Shown piece by piece: positions 34,928 to 41,735 of a stretch of 64,000 nt of DNA (its first letter is position 1; the number at the start of each line of letters is the position of its first letter). The notes beneath the pieces are model-generated. The model had not been told where the DNA came from, made no database searches, and saw only the letters and a program-made list of their open reading frames with translations. The position numbers and the translations under genes are program-made. The stretch is from Euzebya sp. (GTDB lineage Bacteria; Actinomycetota; Nitriliruptoria; Euzebyales; Euzebyaceae): positions 1-64,000 of the forward strand of contig NZ_CAXQBR010000079.1 of assembly GCF_964222135.1 (NCBI RefSeq), given 5' to 3'.

Positions 34928-35626
34928 GTGGCCGCGCGGTCGGCGGGTCCGCTGACCAGCGTCGACGTCGACGTCGTGGCGCTGACGCTGTCCGGCGGTC
35001 AGCTCGCCGACGGCGAGCAGCTCCCCTCCCCCCACGTCTGGGTGGAGCCGGACGACACCACACCCGGTCGCCGGCGCTTGCCGGGCCGACCGCTCACCCC
35101 GGCCGACGACCTGGAGGGTGCCGCCCGGGGGGTCCTCGCCGCCATCGGCATCGACGAACCCCGCCACCTCGAGCAGCTCGCCTCCTTCGGCGCTCCCGAC
35201 CGGGTGCCAGGACGCCACGCGGTCAGCGTCAGCTACCTGGCCCTGATCCCCGAGCCGCACCATCCCCCTGCCCACGGGACGGACGGCGGGTGGGTGCCAG
35301 CCGCCCAGCAGGCCGCCGGCGACCTCGCCTGGGACCACGCGACGATCGTCGAGGCCGCGGTCCAGCGGGTGCGGAGCAAGCTCTCGTACTCGAACATCGC
35401 CTACGGGCTGCTGCCCGACGAGTTCACGATGTCCGAGCTGCAGCTGGTCTACGAGGCGGTGCTCGGCACCACGCTCGACAAGCGGAACTTCCGGCGCAAG
35501 GTCACCGCCCTGGGCCTGCTCAGCGACACCGGCCGGCAGCGGCGGGGATCCCACCGCCCCGCGCGCCTGTACACCTTCACGAGCGCCGAGCTGGTGCTGC
35601 TCGACGACGTGATCGCCACCTCCTGA
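34928..35626 (+). CDS. nrtR: NrtR-type regulator of NAD metabolism
   Basis: 232 aa from GTG. N-terminal NUDIX-like domain (about 10-140) whose catalytic box is degenerate (TPADDLEGAARGVLAAIGI lacks the REUxEE acids), then a winged helix (about 150-230; FTMSELQLVYEAVLG, NFRRKVTALGLL). In the NrtR family the dead NUDIX domain senses ADP-ribose and the wing represses NAD biosynthesis or salvage genes. Immediate proximity to pncB strongly supports this. No operator palindrome was recognised in the 34-bp spacer. Confidence 0.85.
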   Translation: MAARSAGPLTSVDVDVVALTLSGGQLADGEQLPSPHVWVEPDDTTPGRRRLPGRPLTPADDLEGAARGVLAAIGIDEPRHLEQLASFGAPDRVPGRHAVSVSYLALIPEPHHPPAHGTDGGWVPAAQQAAGDLAWDHATIVEAAVQRVRSKLSYSNIAYGLLPDEFTMSELQLVYEAVLGTTLDKRNFRRKVTALGLLSDTGRQRRGSHRPARLYTFTSAELVLLDDVIATS

Positions 35627-35660
35627 CGCCCGCCCTGACGCCCCATCCCCCGGACGACCC

Positions 35661-37001
35661 ATGACGCCCTCCGCACTCTTCACCGACTTCTACGAGTTGA
35701 CGATGATGGCCGGCTACGCCGACGCGGGGCTGGCCGACGCCCCGGCGACGTTCGACCTGTTCTTCCGGCGTCCGCCCGAGGGCGTGTCCGTCCTCGTCTC
35801 GGCCGGCCAGCAGCTCGCCCTCGACTTCCTCGAGGCGCTCCGCTTCACCGACGAGGACCTGGCCTACCTGCGCACGACGCCGCTGCCCGCCGCCTTCGTC
35901 GACTCGCTGGCCGACCTGCGGTTCACCGGCGACGTGCACGCCGTGCCAGAGGGGACGCCGGTCTTCGCCAACGAGCCGGTGCTGCGGGTCGAGGCCCCGC
36001 TGGCCCAGGCCCAGCTGGTGGAGACCGCGCTGCTGAACGCCATCTGCTACAGCTCGCTGGTGGCCTCGAACGCCGCGGAGGTCCGCCTCGCCGCCGGCGA
36101 TCGCGGGGTCCTCGAGTTCGGTGCCCGACGGGCGCACGGACCGGACGGGGCGCTGTCCGCCTCGCGTGCGGCGTTCGTCGGCGGGTGCGACTCGACGTCC
36201 AACGTCGAGGCGGGGCACCGCTTCGGGATCCCCGTGTCGGGCACCCAGGCCCACGCGTGGGTCATGGCGTTCCCGTCGGAGCTCGAGAGCTTCCGCGCCT
36301 ACGCCACGACCTTCCCCGATGCCTGCGTGCTGCTGGTCGACACCTACGACACGCTGGGCGTCGGCGTGCCGAACGCGATCACCGTCGCCCGGGAGATGCG
36401 GGCGAGGGGACAGCGGCTGCAGGGCATCCGCCTGGACTCGGGCGACCTGTCCGCGCTGGCGACGGGCGCCCGCGAGCAGCTGGACGCCGCCGGGTTCGAG
36501 GAGGTGCAGATCGTGGCCAGCGGCGACCTCGACGCCCGTCGGGTCGCCGAGCTGTGCCGCGCCGGCGCGCCGATCGACTCCTTCGGGGTGGGGACCGCCC
36601 TGGTCACGGCGAAGCAGGACCCGACCATCTCAGGGGTCTACAAGCTCGCGCACCTCGCCGACGTCGACGTGGCGAAGATCTCCTCCAACCCGGGCAAGAC
36701 CACCGACCCGGGGCGCAAGCAGGTGTGGCGGACCGACGACGGCGACGTGATCGGGCTGGCGGACGAGGACCGGCCCGGCACGCCGTTGCTCAACCAGGTC
36801 ATGGCCGACGGACGGCGGATCGCCGACCTCCCGGACCTGGCGCGGATCCGCGCGCAGGCGATCGAGTCCCGCGGGTGGCTGCAGGCCCGCTGCCCCGAGG
36901 AGGACCTGCTGCGCTGGCCCGTGCGGCGCAGCCAGCGCCTCGACGACCTCCGCGAGGCCGTGCTCGCCGACATGGCCGACGGGATCCGCGGGGAGGCCTG
37001 A
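35661..37001 (+). CDS. pncB: Nicotinate phosphoribosyltransferase
   Basis: 446 aa. LFTDFYELTMMAGYADAGL at the start, EFGARRAHGPDGAL, the phosphorylatable His in GHRFGIPVSGTQAHAWVMAF, and IRLDSGDL with FGVGTALVTAKQDP are NAPRTase hallmarks. It converts nicotinate and PRPP to nicotinate mononucleotide in NAD salvage. It directly follows its likely regulator nrtR. The stop codon lies in a hairpin shared with the convergent Fic gene. Confidence 0.93.
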   Translation: MTPSALFTDFYELTMMAGYADAGLADAPATFDLFFRRPPEGVSVLVSAGQQLALDFLEALRFTDEDLAYLRTTPLPAAFVDSLADLRFTGDVHAVPEGTPVFANEPVLRVEAPLAQAQLVETALLNAICYSSLVASNAAEVRLAAGDRGVLEFGARRAHGPDGALSASRAAFVGGCDSTSNVEAGHRFGIPVSGTQAHAWVMAFPSELESFRAYATTFPDACVLLVDTYDTLGVGVPNAITVAREMRARGQRLQGIRLDSGDLSALATGAREQLDAAGFEEVQIVASGDLDARRVAELCRAGAPIDSFGVGTALVTAKQDPTISGVYKLAHLADVDVAKISSNPGKTTDPGRKQVWRTDDGDVIGLADEDRPGTPLLNQVMADGRRIADLPDLARIRAQAIESRGWLQARCPEEDLLRWPVRRSQRLDDLREAVLADMADGIRGEA

Positions 37002-37020
37002 CCCGCCCCCGACGGGGTCA
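36999..37020. terminator. Bidirectional hairpin containing both stop codons
   Basis: TGACCC (36999-37004) pairs with GGGTCA (37015-37020). The left arm begins with the pncB TGA and the right arm ends with the complement of the Fic TGA. It is the only spacer between these convergent genes. Confidence 0.5.
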
Positions 37021-38085
37021 GGCCATCGAGCGCGGCCGTTCGAACGTCAGCCCCCCGCCGCCGGCGGCCTCCACCAGCTCACCGGCGCGGGCGAACGCGA
37101 CCAGGTCCGCCCGCGCGTCGCGCAGGTCCACGCCGACGTCCCGGGCGTACTCGCGCAGGTTGATCCGCCCACCGGCGGGGACCGCCGCCACCACGGCACG
37201 GCCCCGGTCCGGCAGGGCGGGGCGGGGCCGGGGGTCGAGGGCGTCCGCGGCGGCCTCGAGCGCGCGGGCCAGCGCACCGGTGTGGCGTTCGAGCCAGCGG
37301 GACCGGTCGCCCCGACGGCGCACGGTCGCGGCGACCTCCCCGTAGTAGCCGGTCGGATCGGCCATCAGCTGCCGCTCGAGCACGGCGACCCCCTGGGGGT
37401 CCACGCCCGCGGCCACCAGCACCAGCCGTGCGCAGGCGCGCGCGACCCGGCCGTTGCCCGCCTCGAACGGCTGGATCTCGAGGAGCCTCCCGTGGACCAA
37501 CCCGGCGGTGATGGCGGGGTGCTGCACCAGCGTGCGCCGTCGCAGCCACTCGTCGAGGTCGGCCAGCGCCGGCTCGACGGTGTCCGGCGCCGGCGCGTGG
37601 TAGATGACCATGCCCTGCGCGCCGTCGTGGACGGCCTGCTCGGTGCGCCGCGGCGCGCCGATGACGGCGGGGTCGACCAAGCCCTCGCAGACGATGCCGT
37701 GCACGTCGCGCAGCGCGGTGAGCGGCTCGGTGACGATGCGGGAGGCCAGCTCCGCCTCCACGGCGTCGAGGGTCCGGAGGTTCGCGTACTCGACGGCGGC
37801 GACGTCCTGGGTCTCCATCCCCTCGAGCCGGAGGGCGCGGGCCCAGCCGGTGCCGAGGTCCGCCGGGGGCCCGTCGAGGACCGGCACGTCACCGGCGTCG
37901 ACCCGCGCGACGGTCTCGTCGGTCAGCGGCGACCCGTCGAGGCGGGCGGAGCAGGCCGCCGCCTCCCCGCGGGCTGCGGGGGCGAGGCGCGCCCGCCGAT
38001 CGGGATCGGCGCCGGCGATCCGCGTCGTGGCCGCCTCGGCGCGGGCGACCAGCTGGACCAGGTGGTGGCTGTAGGTGAACTGCAC
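37018..38085 (-). CDS. Fic-family protein lacking the catalytic His
   Basis: 355 aa. Fic core motif reads QPFEAGNGR (205-213) where active AMP-transferases have HxFx(D/E)GNGR: the general-base His is Gln. An N-terminal inhibitory-helix-like motif SARLDG (46-51, consensus S/TxxxEG) indicates the class II layout. The C-terminal winged-helix-like region (about 290-350) is typical of long Fic proteins. It may be inactive, a regulator, or use different chemistry. Ends convergently with pncB; the HAD gene lies 21 bp upstream. Confidence 0.85.
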   Translation of the reverse strand: MQFTYSHHLVQLVARAEAATTRIAGADPDRRARLAPAARGEAAACSARLDGSPLTDETVARVDAGDVPVLDGPPADLGTGWARALRLEGMETQDVAAVEYANLRTLDAVEAELASRIVTEPLTALRDVHGIVCEGLVDPAVIGAPRRTEQAVHDGAQGMVIYHAPAPDTVEPALADLDEWLRRRTLVQHPAITAGLVHGRLLEIQPFEAGNGRVARACARLVLVAAGVDPQGVAVLERQLMADPTGYYGEVAATVRRRGDRSRWLERHTGALARALEAAADALDPRPRPALPDRGRAVVAAVPAGGRINLREYARDVGVDLRDARADLVAFARAGELVEAAGGGGLTFERPRSMA

Positions 38086-38106: not shown

Positions 38107-38952
38107 CTAGCGCGAGAACCCGAACGTCCGGGCCACGGTGCGCTGGACGTTGTTCTCGCCGATGCGGATGCCCGCGTACACGCCCGCACCCGCGGCGGCG
38201 GCCGTCAGCGTGCCGATGCCGACCCCGCGCATCACCTTCTTCTGGGTGCGGTCGAACTCGACGACGGGCCAGCCCCGCCGGTGGGCGATGGCCATCAGGG
38301 ACCGGTCGGGGTTGACCGCGACCGGGTGGCCGACCATCTGCATCATCGGCAGGTCGCTCGCTGAGTCCGAGTACGCGTAGCACTTGGTCAGGTCGTAGCC
38401 CTCGTCGACGGCGAGGCGGCGGAGGACGTCGGCCTTGCCCTCCCCGTAGCAGAACGGGGCGGCGAGCTGCCCGGTGTACATCCCGTCGACGATCTCGCTC
38501 TGGGTGCCGAGCCCGCCGGTGATCTCGAGTGCGCGGGCCAGCTCGCCGACGATCTCGATCGGGCTGGCCGAGATGATGTACACGTCCCGCCCGTTCTCGC
38601 GGTGCATGTCGAGCAGGGCGTTGGCCTCGGGCTTGATCTTCGGGAGCAGCTCCTCGATCACCTGCGGGGCGAGGCTGGTCAGCTTGTCCGCCTCCGTGCC
38701 GGCGACCGTGGCGAGGATCCGGTCGCGGATCGCCTCGGACTGCTCGTCGGAGGCGCCGAACAGCCGGAACATGAGCGCGGTGGACCCGTCGGCGAGCAGC
38801 CGCTTCATCGGCAGGAGCCCCTCGCGGTAGGCGGCCTTCCCGAAGTAGTAGGCGCTCGACCCGGACATGAGCGTACGGTCGAGGTCGAAGAAGGCGGCGC
38901 TGTCGGTGGTGCCGGCCTCGGTGACGGTGGTGGCGGTCATCTCGGGGCTCAT
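38107..38952 (-). CDS. HAD-IB family phosphatase
   Basis: 281 aa. Motif I FFDLDRTLMSGSS, motif II Ser in YIISASPIEIV, Lys in YGEGKADVL and motif IV YSDSASDLPMM give a complete SerB-like HAD active site. A C-terminal hydrophobic helix (about 245-262) may anchor it. Related enzymes include phosphoserine phosphatase-like and lysophospholipid phosphatases; substrate not assignable. Read with the Fic gene on the minus strand. Confidence 0.85.
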   Translation of the reverse strand: MSPEMTATTVTEAGTTDSAAFFDLDRTLMSGSSAYYFGKAAYREGLLPMKRLLADGSTALMFRLFGASDEQSEAIRDRILATVAGTEADKLTSLAPQVIEELLPKIKPEANALLDMHRENGRDVYIISASPIEIVGELARALEITGGLGTQSEIVDGMYTGQLAAPFCYGEGKADVLRRLAVDEGYDLTKCYAYSDSASDLPMMQMVGHPVAVNPDRSLMAIAHRRGWPVVEFDRTQKKVMRGVGIGTLTAAAAGAGVYAGIRIGENNVQRTVARTFGFSR

Positions 38953-39056
38953 CGTGGCCCGGAGTCTGCCACCGGTGCTCCGGCTCCGCGGCCGGCGGAC
39001 CGGCCCGGAGGGTCACCTCGTGCCACGCGAGCCCCTGCGCGACACTTGCGGTGCAC

Positions 39057-39665
39057 ATGACCTCACCGCCTGCACACGAGCCGTCCGCCGCGCTGTCCCT
39101 CGACCTGCTCGAGTCCCTCCTCGGGTTCGTCGCGGCCGCCATCCACGACCGGCCGGTGCAGCAGCTCGTCGCCGCGCGGCTCATGCTGGAGACCGTCGGT
39201 GTCGCCGACCAGCTCTCCGAACGCGGCATGGCGGCGCTGTCGACCGCCGGCGAGCAGGCCCGTCAGATCATGTGGGCGCTGACCGCGCCGACCTTCCGCC
39301 CCTCCCACCTGGCCGAGGACCTGGAGCGGTCGCTGTCCGATGCCGCGCCGGCTGCCTCCCCCGCGGTGCGCGTCGACCTCGGCGACGAGGTCGCGCCGGA
39401 GGTGTGGGGGGTCCTGGTGACAGCCGTCCACGACGTCGCCGTCGACGTGCTGCTCGGCGGCCAGCAGCTCGTCGAGGTGGCGGTCTCCGCCGACGCCGAG
39501 GGGGTGGAGGCGCGCGTGACCTCCACCGGCGGGTCCGCGGGGGAGGTCGGGACCGCCGGCCCGTGGGTGCAGCTCGCCGGCATCCGCCTGGCCGACGTCG
39601 GGGGGCTCGTCACCGTCGGCGACGAGGCCGGACGCCGTCGCGTGGTCCTGCGCGTCCCCACCTGA
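39057..39665 (+). CDS. Degenerate HisKA_3-like / HATPase-like protein
   Basis: About 202 aa. Residues 15-70 resemble the dimerisation helix of NarL-type kinases (AAIHDRPVQQLVAARLMLE, with His-Asp in place). The following part has the size of an ATPase domain but no N box or G boxes (WVQLAGIRLADVGGLVTVGD). It has no sensor and no partner regulator. Possibly a phosphotransfer or scaffold protein. Start ATG 39057, or GTG 39051. Confidence 0.55.
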   Translation: MTSPPAHEPSAALSLDLLESLLGFVAAAIHDRPVQQLVAARLMLETVGVADQLSERGMAALSTAGEQARQIMWALTAPTFRPSHLAEDLERSLSDAAPAASPAVRVDLGDEVAPEVWGVLVTAVHDVAVDVLLGGQQLVEVAVSADAEGVEARVTSTGGSAGEVGTAGPWVQLAGIRLADVGGLVTVGDEAGRRRVVLRVPT

Positions 39666-39669
39666 GGTG

Positions 39670-40677
39670 TCAGGGCGTCGACGTGGCTCGGGCGGCGAGC
39701 TCCGCGTCGGCGCGGGCCCGCTCCTCACAGCTGTCCGCGCGTCCGCACCAGCGGCACATCGGCCCGGCCGACAGGGTGATCGGGGTCGGGTCGTCCTCCA
39801 GTCGGATGGCGGCGGCGACGCGGTCGACCAGCCCGCGGGCGGCGGCCTCGAGGACGTCGTCGGTCACCGCCTCCTCGTCCCAGGTCCCCTCGTCCACGTA
39901 GAACGTCGCCACCTTGAACGGGGCCTGGCGGTACTTGAGGGTGGCCAGCAGCGCGTACCAGCGCATGTCCTGGCGGTCGCTCCGGGAGCGGTTCCCGGTC
40001 TTGAGGTCGACCAGCAGCAACCGCCGTTCGTGCGGCACGACCCGACCGAGCACGAGGTCGGGCTTGCCGCGGACCGCCACCGCCCCCGCGCCGAACCGGG
40101 CGGTCAGGGTCGGCTCGAAGATCACCCGCCAGGAGTCGGGCAGGACGGGGAAGAGGGTGCGGTACTCCTCGACGACCGTGGTGGCCTCGGCCTGCACGGC
40201 GGCGACCTCGAGGTCGGTCAGGCCGTCGGCGTAGTCGACCTGCCCGTCGCCGGAGTGGCGGAACTCCTCCCACGCGTGGGCCATCAGCTCCTTCGCGCCG
40301 GTCCGCCGGCTGACGTGGTGGTCGAGGGCGATGGCCCGGTGGACGAGCTGTCCGCGGACGGTCGGCCGGGACCACTCGAACGGCGTGGCCCGCAGGTCGA
40401 GGTAGCGGCCGTCGCAGGCGAGCGCGTCGAGCTGGGTCTTGCCGAGCACCACCCGGCGCGCGTCCGCGGGCCGGTCCTCGAGCAGCGGGGCCAGGCGGCC
40501 CTCGATCCAGTCGCGCAGCCGGGCGGGCCGGTCGGGGTCGGGCACCGGGCGCGGACGGCCGACCGCGAGGAGGTCGGTGACGATCCGCCGGGGGGCCTCG
40601 CCCAGCCCGGCCAGGTCGATGCCGCCGACGATCTGGGAGTCGGGGTCGGGTGCGTGGTCAGAGCCGATCAGCGCCAC
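39670..40677 (-). CDS. PD-(D/E)XK nuclease (RecB/Cas4-like)
   Basis: About 335 aa. Catalytic signature GKPDLVLGRV then LLLVDLKTGNRS (D...DxK), with an upstream His/Glu region (QLVHRAIALDHHV). Near the C-terminus PMCRWCGRADSCEERARA gives a Cys cluster as in Fe-S RecB-family nucleases. Not near CRISPR genes; probably DNA repair, like the PDDEXK_1 group. GTG 40677 is the assumed start and overlaps the rsgA end by 10 bp. Confidence 0.78.
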   Translation of the reverse strand: MALIGSDHAPDPDSQIVGGIDLAGLGEAPRRIVTDLLAVGRPRPVPDPDRPARLRDWIEGRLAPLLEDRPADARRVVLGKTQLDALACDGRYLDLRATPFEWSRPTVRGQLVHRAIALDHHVSRRTGAKELMAHAWEEFRHSGDGQVDYADGLTDLEVAAVQAEATTVVEEYRTLFPVLPDSWRVIFEPTLTARFGAGAVAVRGKPDLVLGRVVPHERRLLLVDLKTGNRSRSDRQDMRWYALLATLKYRQAPFKVATFYVDEGTWDEEAVTDDVLEAAARGLVDRVAAAIRLEDDPTPITLSAGPMCRWCGRADSCEERARADAELAARATSTP

Positions 40678-41735
40678 CCCTTCCGCTCGAGCTGGGTGCG
40701 CGTCGCCTCGAGCTCCTCGACGAGCCGCTGGTGGGCATCCAGGCGGTCGGGGTCGATCAGACCGTCCGCCACGGCATGGCGCACCGCGCAGCCCGGCTCG
40801 ACGTCGTGGGTGCAGTCCCGGAAGCGGCAGGTCGCCGCCGCCTCGGCGACCTCGGTGAACACCGCGTCCAGGTCGGCCCCCTCCGGCCACAGGCCGACGG
40901 CCCGCACGCCGGGCGTGTCGAGCATCGCGCCACCGGTGGGGAGGACCAGCAGCTCGCGGCGGGTGGTCGTATGCCGGCCCTTCGCGTCGCCCTCGCGGAC
41001 GCCGCCGATGGCGAGGGCCTCGTGGCCGAGGACGGCGTTGACCAGGGACGACTTGCCGGCCCCCGACTCGCCGAGCAGCACGAGCGTCCGGTCGGGATCG
41101 GTCAGGGCGTCCACGGCGTCGATGCCGCGCGCGCGGGCGTCGTCGGTCGCGGCGGCGGTGAGCAGGACCGGCTCCCCCCGGGTGGCGTCGGCGACGGCCG
41201 TCACGACGTCGTCGGCGCCGGGCAGGTCGCCCTTGGTGACGATCACCACCACCTCGGCGTCGCTGCCGTGCGCGACGGCCAGCTGCCGCTACAGCCGGCG
41301 GGCGTTGACCGGGCGGTCGGCGCCCTGGACGACGGCGACGACGTCGGCGTTCGCGGCGAGGACCTGCGGAGCCGCCCGATCGGCGGGGTCGCGGCGGACC
41401 AGCGCGGTGCGGCGGGGCAGCACCTCGGCGATGACCGGCTCGTCGAGGTCCGCCAGGTCCGCCACGACGACCCAGTCGCCGGTGGCCGGTGCCGTGAGCG
41501 GGTCGCGGCTGCGGGCCCGGTGGACCACGAACTCCCGCCCGCGCGGGGTCATGACGTCGAAGCCGACGCGGTGGGTGCGGACCACCCGCCCGGGACGGTG
41601 TCCGCTGCCGGCGGCGTCCGCGTCTGCGTCGACCGTCGCAGCGACCACCGCGTCGACGGCGGACCGCCACCCCTCGTCGAAGCCCACCCCCGCGAGACCG
41701 CCGTCGGCGGTCACGTCGGCGTCAACCCCCGGCAT
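40668..41735 (-). pseudogene. rsgA: RsgA ribosome-assembly GTPase with an in-frame amber codon
   Basis: 355 aa if read through. OB-fold N-terminus, then circularly permuted GTPase: G4 VIVTKGDL, G1 GESGAGKSSLVN, G3 DTPG, zinc site CRFRDC...HDVEPGC. At 41289-41291 the frame has TAG: NARRL-stop-RQLAVAHG, where Glu is expected (GAG to TAG is one base). Both halves stay in the same frame. A second product could start at GTG/ATG near 41252 but would lack the OB fold. Real nonsense mutation, readthrough, or sequencing error. Confidence 0.85.

Follow-up and report, generated by a model that had tools for sequence, protein, structure and literature searches.

Class II Fic proteins carry an N-terminal [S/T]xxxE[G/N] motif. 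Some of the Fic proteins with an N-terminal inhibitory helix have a C-terminal winged helix as well, and in FICD the inhibitory Glu serves deAMPylation. The canonical FIC motif reads HxFx[D/E]GNGRxxR, with the metal held by the Asp or Glu (PMC4454073, PMC7842960). Degenerate FIC motifs are already known (PMC5651007, PMC7842960), and replacement of the His by Gln has been published for one clade of Doc proteins (PMC4454073). That clade, D2, has its His-to-Gln change at the same motif position as the protein described here, but in the cited account its members keep the Asp/Glu, have NKR, and are usually single-domain Doc proteins (PMC4454073). BepC likewise has the metal acid of its FIC motif replaced; it differs in having Lys at the metal position, in keeping the His, and in being a translocated effector (PMC7842960). 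AvrB has the Fido fold without the canonical motif (PMC4454073) and differs in being a glycosyltransferase effector (PMC10866546). In the open-access literature we found no account of the erosion of the lineage described below or of its tie to a HAD-IB gene across the phylum, and no article on 7cb8, a FIC protein of M. marinum with CDP.

Here we describe a Fic-like protein encoded in a 64-kb stretch of DNA (the window, meaning the whole stretch that was analysed). Our preferred reading, to which we give a probability of about one-half, is that the product is a pseudo-AMPylase of the Fido fold: a protein inherited in its lineage whose residues for metal-dependent AMP transfer are gone and that has been retained for a putative binding role. 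What began as one odd residue has become a family in which graded loss of the active site can be read on a tree, and its natural His, Gln, Arg, and motif-less members allow side-by-side comparison.

A Fic-like protein with a predicted Fic fold

The gene and the parts of its product lie as follows.

37018 to 38085, minus strand: Fic-like protein gene, 355 amino acids, GTG start (open reading frame, Pfam Fic, and AlphaFold)
37897 to 38085, minus strand: N-terminal helices, residues 1 to 63, bearing the inhibitory-type motif (AlphaFold model)
37933 to 37950, minus strand: SARLDG, residues 46 to 51, with Asp in place of Glu (sequence and alignment)
37417 to 37719, minus strand: Fic core, residues 123 to 223 (Pfam PF02661)
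37612 to 37632, minus strand: flap VHDGAQG, residues 152 to 158, with family-typical His and Asp
37447 to 37473, minus strand: QPFEAGNGR, FIC motif starting at residue 205, with Gln for His and Ala for the metal acid
37039 to 37215, minus strand: C-terminal region, about residues 291 to 349, winged-helix-like (predicted secondary structure)

The open reading frame matched Pfam Fic (PF02661) over residues 123 to 223 with an E value of 3.4e-11, and its score of 44.3 bits (46.9 bits in the genome search; cut-off, 24) places the protein in the Fido superfamily. An AlphaFold2 model, built on an alignment of 48 family members, had a mean pLDDT of 94.3 and a pTM of 0.92. The solved structures listed as matches to this model were Fic proteins, with 4rgl at the top (Z 29.9, 2.2 Å over 250 residues), followed by FICD and SoFic entries at Z of about 25 to 26. 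Because the model matches Fic structures, we assign the N-terminal helices, the flap, and the core of a Fic protein to it. The N-terminal helices span residues 7 to 25, 28 to 49, and 56 to 63, and the structural alignments to the FICD and SoFic entries start at model residues 1 to 7; the flap strands are at 151 to 153 and 160 to 163. The C-terminal part is modeled as a helix (293 to 300), a strand (307 to 309), two helices (310 to 317 and 321 to 333), and a strand (347 to 349), an order that suggests a winged helix; one relative (L022) gave a weak MarR_2 match, with an E value of 1.5e-4 and under the family cut-off.

In fold, the protein resembles the Fic proteins with an N-terminal inhibitory helix, namely FICD, SoFic (3eqx and 3zec), Dde_2494 (4rgl), and Coxiella Fic2 (8cil), with Z of 24.6 to 29.9, and it shares with them the Asn-Gly-Arg and the following Arg. 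Unlike them, it has Gln for the His, Ala for the metal acid, and Asp for the inhibitory Glu, and its gene is tied to a HAD-IB gene. Set against the residues expected for AMP transfer, the catalytic His is replaced by Gln205, with codon CAG at 37471 to 37473, and the metal Asp/Glu at motif position 5 by Ala209; N211, G212, R213, and the next Arg, R216, are present. An earlier note on this DNA, made from the letters alone, had pointed out the His-to-Gln replacement in QPFEAGNGR and a retained phosphate-binding site, and both observations hold, the latter in that the Asn-Gly-Arg anion site is kept. It had also taken the inhibitory motif to be intact, which it is not. The window protein reads S-ARL-D-G and so departs from the class II pattern, although the helix is modeled, and Asp occupies the inhibitory position in 46 of 47 aligned members from the class, compared with Glu in all 15 of the canonical controls that could be aligned there. 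Membership in Doc clade D2 was considered and rejected, as QPFEAGNGR has Ala at the acid position and an NGR end.

Three more Fic/Doc genes are found in the genome of the window, with the motifs HPFHDGNGR, HALVDGNKR, and HAFLDGNKR, and canonical Fic motifs therefore occur elsewhere in that genome.

The metal acid is lost more generally than the His

Matches to the family at an E value of 0.001 or better were found in 62 of 66 genomes of the class (presumably Nitriliruptoria), the weakest of them resembling other Fic proteins, and 56 of the 66 genomes reached 150 bits. The motif was read in the 55 distinct class members whose loci were on hand, leaving a broken copy (L063/L131) uncounted. Motif position 1 was Gln in 26, His in 24, Arg in 4, and Met in 1. 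The metal position was Ala in 51, Ser in 3, and Val in 1, with Asp or Glu in none of the 55, so that the metal acid is absent from the His-bearing members as well. Fourteen of these proteins were found only by a scan with a pattern that called for Ala in the metal position. Setting them aside to remove this bias leaves 41 members, with Gln in 24, His in 12, Arg in 4, and Met in 1 at the first position; their metal position is Ala in 37, Ser in 3, and Val in 1, and again never Asp or Glu. The His is therefore lost less generally than the metal acid, and the family probably no longer performs the usual Fic chemistry, judging from its residues. The most divergent class member, L134 (3955 to 4968, plus strand), reads MPFSSANGR and comes from a genome of about 2.1 Mb.

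Conservation was read from an alignment of 94 rows, made up of 48 class members, 30 proteins of a far branch that we call Rv3662c-like, and 16 His-bearing controls; one class row (with Met) was placed in no group, and one Rv3662c-like row lacks the motif region. R146, G158, R213, and R216 were conserved in 47 of 47 class members and N211 in 45. The flap residues His153 and Asp154 were found in 45 and 43 of the 47, respectively; His153 was found in none of the 16 canonical controls. An acid (Glu or Asp) stands at motif position 4 in 45 of the 47 and might substitute for the lost metal ligand. At the metal position, the controls have Asp in 14 cases and Ala in 2; the two with Ala, L061 and L064, are His-bearing Fic proteins of other phyla that came from the pattern scan.

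A transferase of another kind is the main rival to the pseudo-AMPylase reading. In such an enzyme, the Gln or the flap His153 would position an acceptor, the position 4 acid or an Arg would replace the metal site, and the donor would be something other than ATP. The conservation just described, of His153, Asp154, the position 4 acid, R213, and R216, is strong enough that the site looks used, and the conserved pocket of the Gln members would fit altered chemistry too. AnkX and AvrB, the latter a Fido glycosyltransferase, are the comparisons for such chemistry. AvrB is a rhamnosyltransferase, so that enzymatic activity is possible in a Fido protein lacking the motif (PMC10866546), and the Gln-bearing Doc clade, with Qx[F/Y]x[D/E][G/V]NKR, has been judged possibly active (PMC4454073). 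However, the base position varies within the family among Gln, His, Arg, and Met, and no single residue is therefore required there; moreover, His153 is not kept among the Rv3662c-like proteins, 15 of whose 30 rows are gapped at the flap. On this evidence we regard another chemistry as unlikely, if deserving of serious weight. That Gln acts as a weak base and leaves some AMPylation or deAMPylation activity appears quite improbable. Residual activity of His mutants has been discussed (PMC4454073), but here the metal acid is present in 0 of 55 members and Asp replaces the inhibitory Glu in 46 of 47.

Selection on the family and its phylogeny

Eleven of 12 pairs of genes compared had dN/dS ratios of 0.06 to 0.36, and the twelfth (the window gene and L004) had 0.47, these being simple counts (Nei-Gojobori) in which some rows are shared among pairs and whose values are weakened by high G+C. 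The pairs with low ratios include Gln, His, and motif-less members. The pairs compared thus show purifying selection.

With the motif columns excluded, the family and the Rv3662c-like rows formed one clade against 13 canonical rows with support of 100/97, in a tree whose canonical rows are few and mostly found by similarity to the family model and whose Rv3662c-like branch is long. This careful tree was made without three long canonical rows (L129, L135, and L138); a quick tree including them gave the same family clade, with an SH-aLRT of 99. On the best tree, the Gln label needs three changes, two of them forced by well-supported branches, and the Arg label needs one change among the class rows, in a clade other than that of Gln; these counts give no direction of change, and the outgroup rows are all His, having been chosen as canonical.

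The earlier note had proposed checking the Gln in close homologues, where a uniform His would point to a strain-specific loss. Since Gln is found in all four genus genomes examined, that outcome did not occur, and the change is fixed in close homologues. The interpretation in the note has therefore lasted with respect to the loss of the base, the anion site, and fixation, and has failed with respect to the inhibitory motif; it had made no mention of the metal acid, which is present in 0 of the 55 members, of the linkage to HAD-IB, or of the reach of the family to Rv3662c/SCO3559. A gene in decay, a strain-specific loss, or a sequencing error is very improbable as an account of the window gene. 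One family copy, in genome G018 (L063 and L131), is indeed spread over several frames, but the window gene has an open frame, its Gln recurs in the four genus genomes, and dN/dS is well under 1. A strain-specific loss or sequencing error was rejected on the occurrence of Gln in 4 of 4 genus genomes and 26 of 55 class members.

The scattered copy just mentioned belongs to an Egibacteraceae genome (L131, 2829 to 4322), and its HAD-IB neighbor matches at 72% identity.

A HAD-IB phosphatase gene is a nearly constant neighbor in the class

The genes on either side of the Fic-like gene are the following.

38107 to 38952, minus strand: HAD-IB phosphatase-like protein (TIGR01490 and Pfam HAD), directly upstream with a gap of 21 bp
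34928 to 37001, plus strand: NrtR-like regulator gene and nicotinate phosphoribosyltransferase gene, convergent with the Fic-like gene

The product of the upstream gene scored 170.4 bits with TIGR01490 (cut-off, 98.3) and 116.1 bits with Pfam HAD, and it contains the DLDRT and SDS..D motifs. Among six HAD-IB genes examined, the DLD motif was present in six and the SDS..D pattern as written in five. A HAD-IB gene lay directly upstream on the same strand in 50 of the 51 testable distinct class members, which are the 55 minus four that are cut by contig ends on the HAD side. The sole exception was L134, which has Met at the His position and in which no HAD-IB neighbor was found. There was no HAD-IB match in any of 17 canonical Fic control loci of 3 to 6 kb, all of them except L138 from other genomes of the phylum. 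These counts suggest that the Fic-like protein and the HAD-IB phosphatase form a conserved pair. Matches to the NrtR-like and nicotinate phosphoribosyltransferase neighbors recurred in part of the class.

One proposal for the pair is that the Fic-like protein adds a phosphate-containing group that the HAD-IB phosphatase removes, or that the phosphatase is itself modified. Such an arrangement would suit the shared strand, the 21-bp gap, the adjacency in 50 of 51 members, and the DLD and SDS..D motifs of the HAD-IB genes (6 of 6 and 5 of 6). The writer, however, would be an enzyme that lacks the metal acid and, in more than half of the class (31 of 55 members), the His too, and the neighborhood persists in 16 of 21 loci of the far branch, whose Fic-like proteins have lost the catalytic residues. 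We therefore consider this arrangement improbable.

A toxin-antitoxin module was also considered and rejected. With the HAD-IB gene 21 bp upstream and the convergent nicotinate phosphoribosyltransferase gene ending at 37001, an antitoxin gene would fit on neither side.

The family extends to the gene beside Ms1 RNA

The class alignment was searched against 396 genomes of the phylum and gave weaker matches in other groups, including proteins of about 250 to 390 amino acids in Streptomyces-like and Mycobacterium-like genomes. In the reverse direction, a profile of 19 of these far proteins recovered the greater part of the class family, whose members were its best matches outside its own kind (up to 89 bits). 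Among canonical Fic proteins the top score was 51.7 bits, above four class members (43 to 45 bits), and there was no match at an E value of 1e-8 in seven class genomes (G017, G019, G031, G033, G040, G304, and G383).

A HAD-IB gene was present in 16 of 21 Rv3662c-like loci, convergent with the Fic-like gene and in L104 more than 3 kb off, and none was found in the other five (L101, L102, L107, L108, and L133). Rfam searches of 13 far loci placed an Ms1 RNA between the two genes in six and a 6C RNA beyond the HAD gene in nine. In L094 to L099, the Ms1 RNA stands between the HAD-IB gene and a motif-less Fic-like gene, and in L092, a Streptomyces-like locus, the order is 6C, HAD, and Fic-like gene. 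Rfam Ms1 was found only in Mycobacterium-like loci. In the 64-kb window, an Ms1 RNA was looked for and not found, with all Rfam families below their gathering scores. Unlike the Ms1 loci, the class loci have the Fic-like and HAD-IB genes as close neighbors on one strand.

On published maps, Rv3661 has Ms1 on its Rv3662c side and 6C on its Rv3660c side (PMC8628891), and the RNAs of the far loci stand in this order. The S. coelicolor gene SCO3558 has scr3558 (6C) and scr3559 as its neighbors on the two sides (PMC8539372, PMC9130861), and SCO3559 is annotated "putative oxidoreductase" (PMC8539372). By synteny with the Ms1 and 6C RNAs and by these maps, the far members probably correspond to Rv3662c and SCO3559, names that rest on gene order rather than on comparison with the named sequences. 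The order HAD, Ms1, "oxidoreductase" has been published, and in the same account "Fic" is given as a synonym of "oxidoreductase" in the annotation of the Ms1-flanking gene and is said to have oxidoreductase activity (PMC9130861). Rv3662c is described as a conserved hypothetical protein of M. tuberculosis and, in TASmania, as an InterPro-only toxin candidate; it was among 11 genes expressed in M. smegmatis and outside the 6 reported to affect growth (PMC6504116).

The Rv3662c-like branch has gone further in its losses. All 29 rows with the motif region lack both His and R213, and none carries Asp or Glu in the metal position; half of the rows (15 of 30) have a gap in place of the flap, and His153 is not conserved. 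R216 is kept in 29 of 29, and in 19 of 29 the inhibitory position is occupied by Asp or Glu. One member was modeled with a pLDDT of 93.0, and its model matched a Fic entry with a Z of 26.6 (2.3 Å over 226 of 246 residues), without the catalytic residues and with no C-terminal winged-helix part. Pfam Fic, run on seven far proteins, was above the cut-off in L107, below it in L091, L108, and L133, and gave nothing in L095, L099, and L100.

The window protein is thus like Rv3662c/SCO3559 in belonging to one clade, in matching by profiles in both directions, in its HAD-IB neighbor (16 of 21 loci), and in its modeled Fic fold. It differs from that branch, in which the modeled member is without the winged-helix part, half of the rows have a gapped flap, R213 is replaced in 29 of 29, and the HAD gene is convergent. 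On sequence and synteny, the Fic-like lineage extends to the gene beside Ms1 RNA (by gene order, Rv3662c/SCO3559), and that gene thereby gains a predicted fold and a testable role.

A putative binding role

The best reading of these results is that the protein is a ligand-binding or scaffold partner, perhaps of the HAD-IB phosphatase. The pocket that remains would bind a phosphate-containing ligand or a partner protein, and the N-terminal helix would close it. The Fic core or the winged-helix-like end would then relay the state of the pocket, most simply to the HAD-IB phosphatase of the adjacent gene, and the protein would act as a switch or platform. Such a role is made plausible by BepC, whose FIC domain functions as a binding platform without catalysis (PMC7842960), and by the place of Rv3662c outside the six growth-affecting genes. 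The further erosion in the Rv3662c/SCO3559 branch, where another Arg and in many cases the flap have gone too, is in keeping with a scaffold that has no further use for its chemistry.

Against the pseudo-AMPylase reading, we count the His kept in 24 of 55 class members and the possible metal substitute provided by the position 4 acid in 45 of 47. The tie to HAD-IB is genomic only; the HAD-IB gene is convergent in the Rv3662c-like loci and was not found in 5 of 21 of these or in L134. Ala at the metal position is also found in the His-bearing proteins L061 and L064 of other phyla.

We offer a bolder proposal more tentatively, as one that is possible at somewhat less than even odds. A pseudoenzyme lineage beside a CicA-like HAD-IB phosphatase would predate the split of the class from the mycobacterial and Streptomyces lines. 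The metal acid would have been lost first, the base afterwards and more than once, and R213 and the flap later in the far branch, while the helix-facing R216 stayed invariant. The protein would act on the phosphatase as a switch under the control of a ligand or a partner, and the name "oxidoreductase" of the Ms1-flanking gene would be wrong. We know of no basis for an oxidoreductase activity of Fic.

Other genes in the window

Beyond the HAD-IB gene, an open reading frame at 39051 to 39665 on the plus strand had no Pfam match at an E value of 0.001; matches to it at 31 to 35% identity lie next to the HAD-IB gene in the other three genus genomes. Farther along, at 40668 to 41735 on the minus strand, the frame of an RsgA-type GTPase is broken by one in-frame stop, which is either decay or a sequence error, and the downstream part of the interrupted frame matches Pfam RsgA_GTPase.
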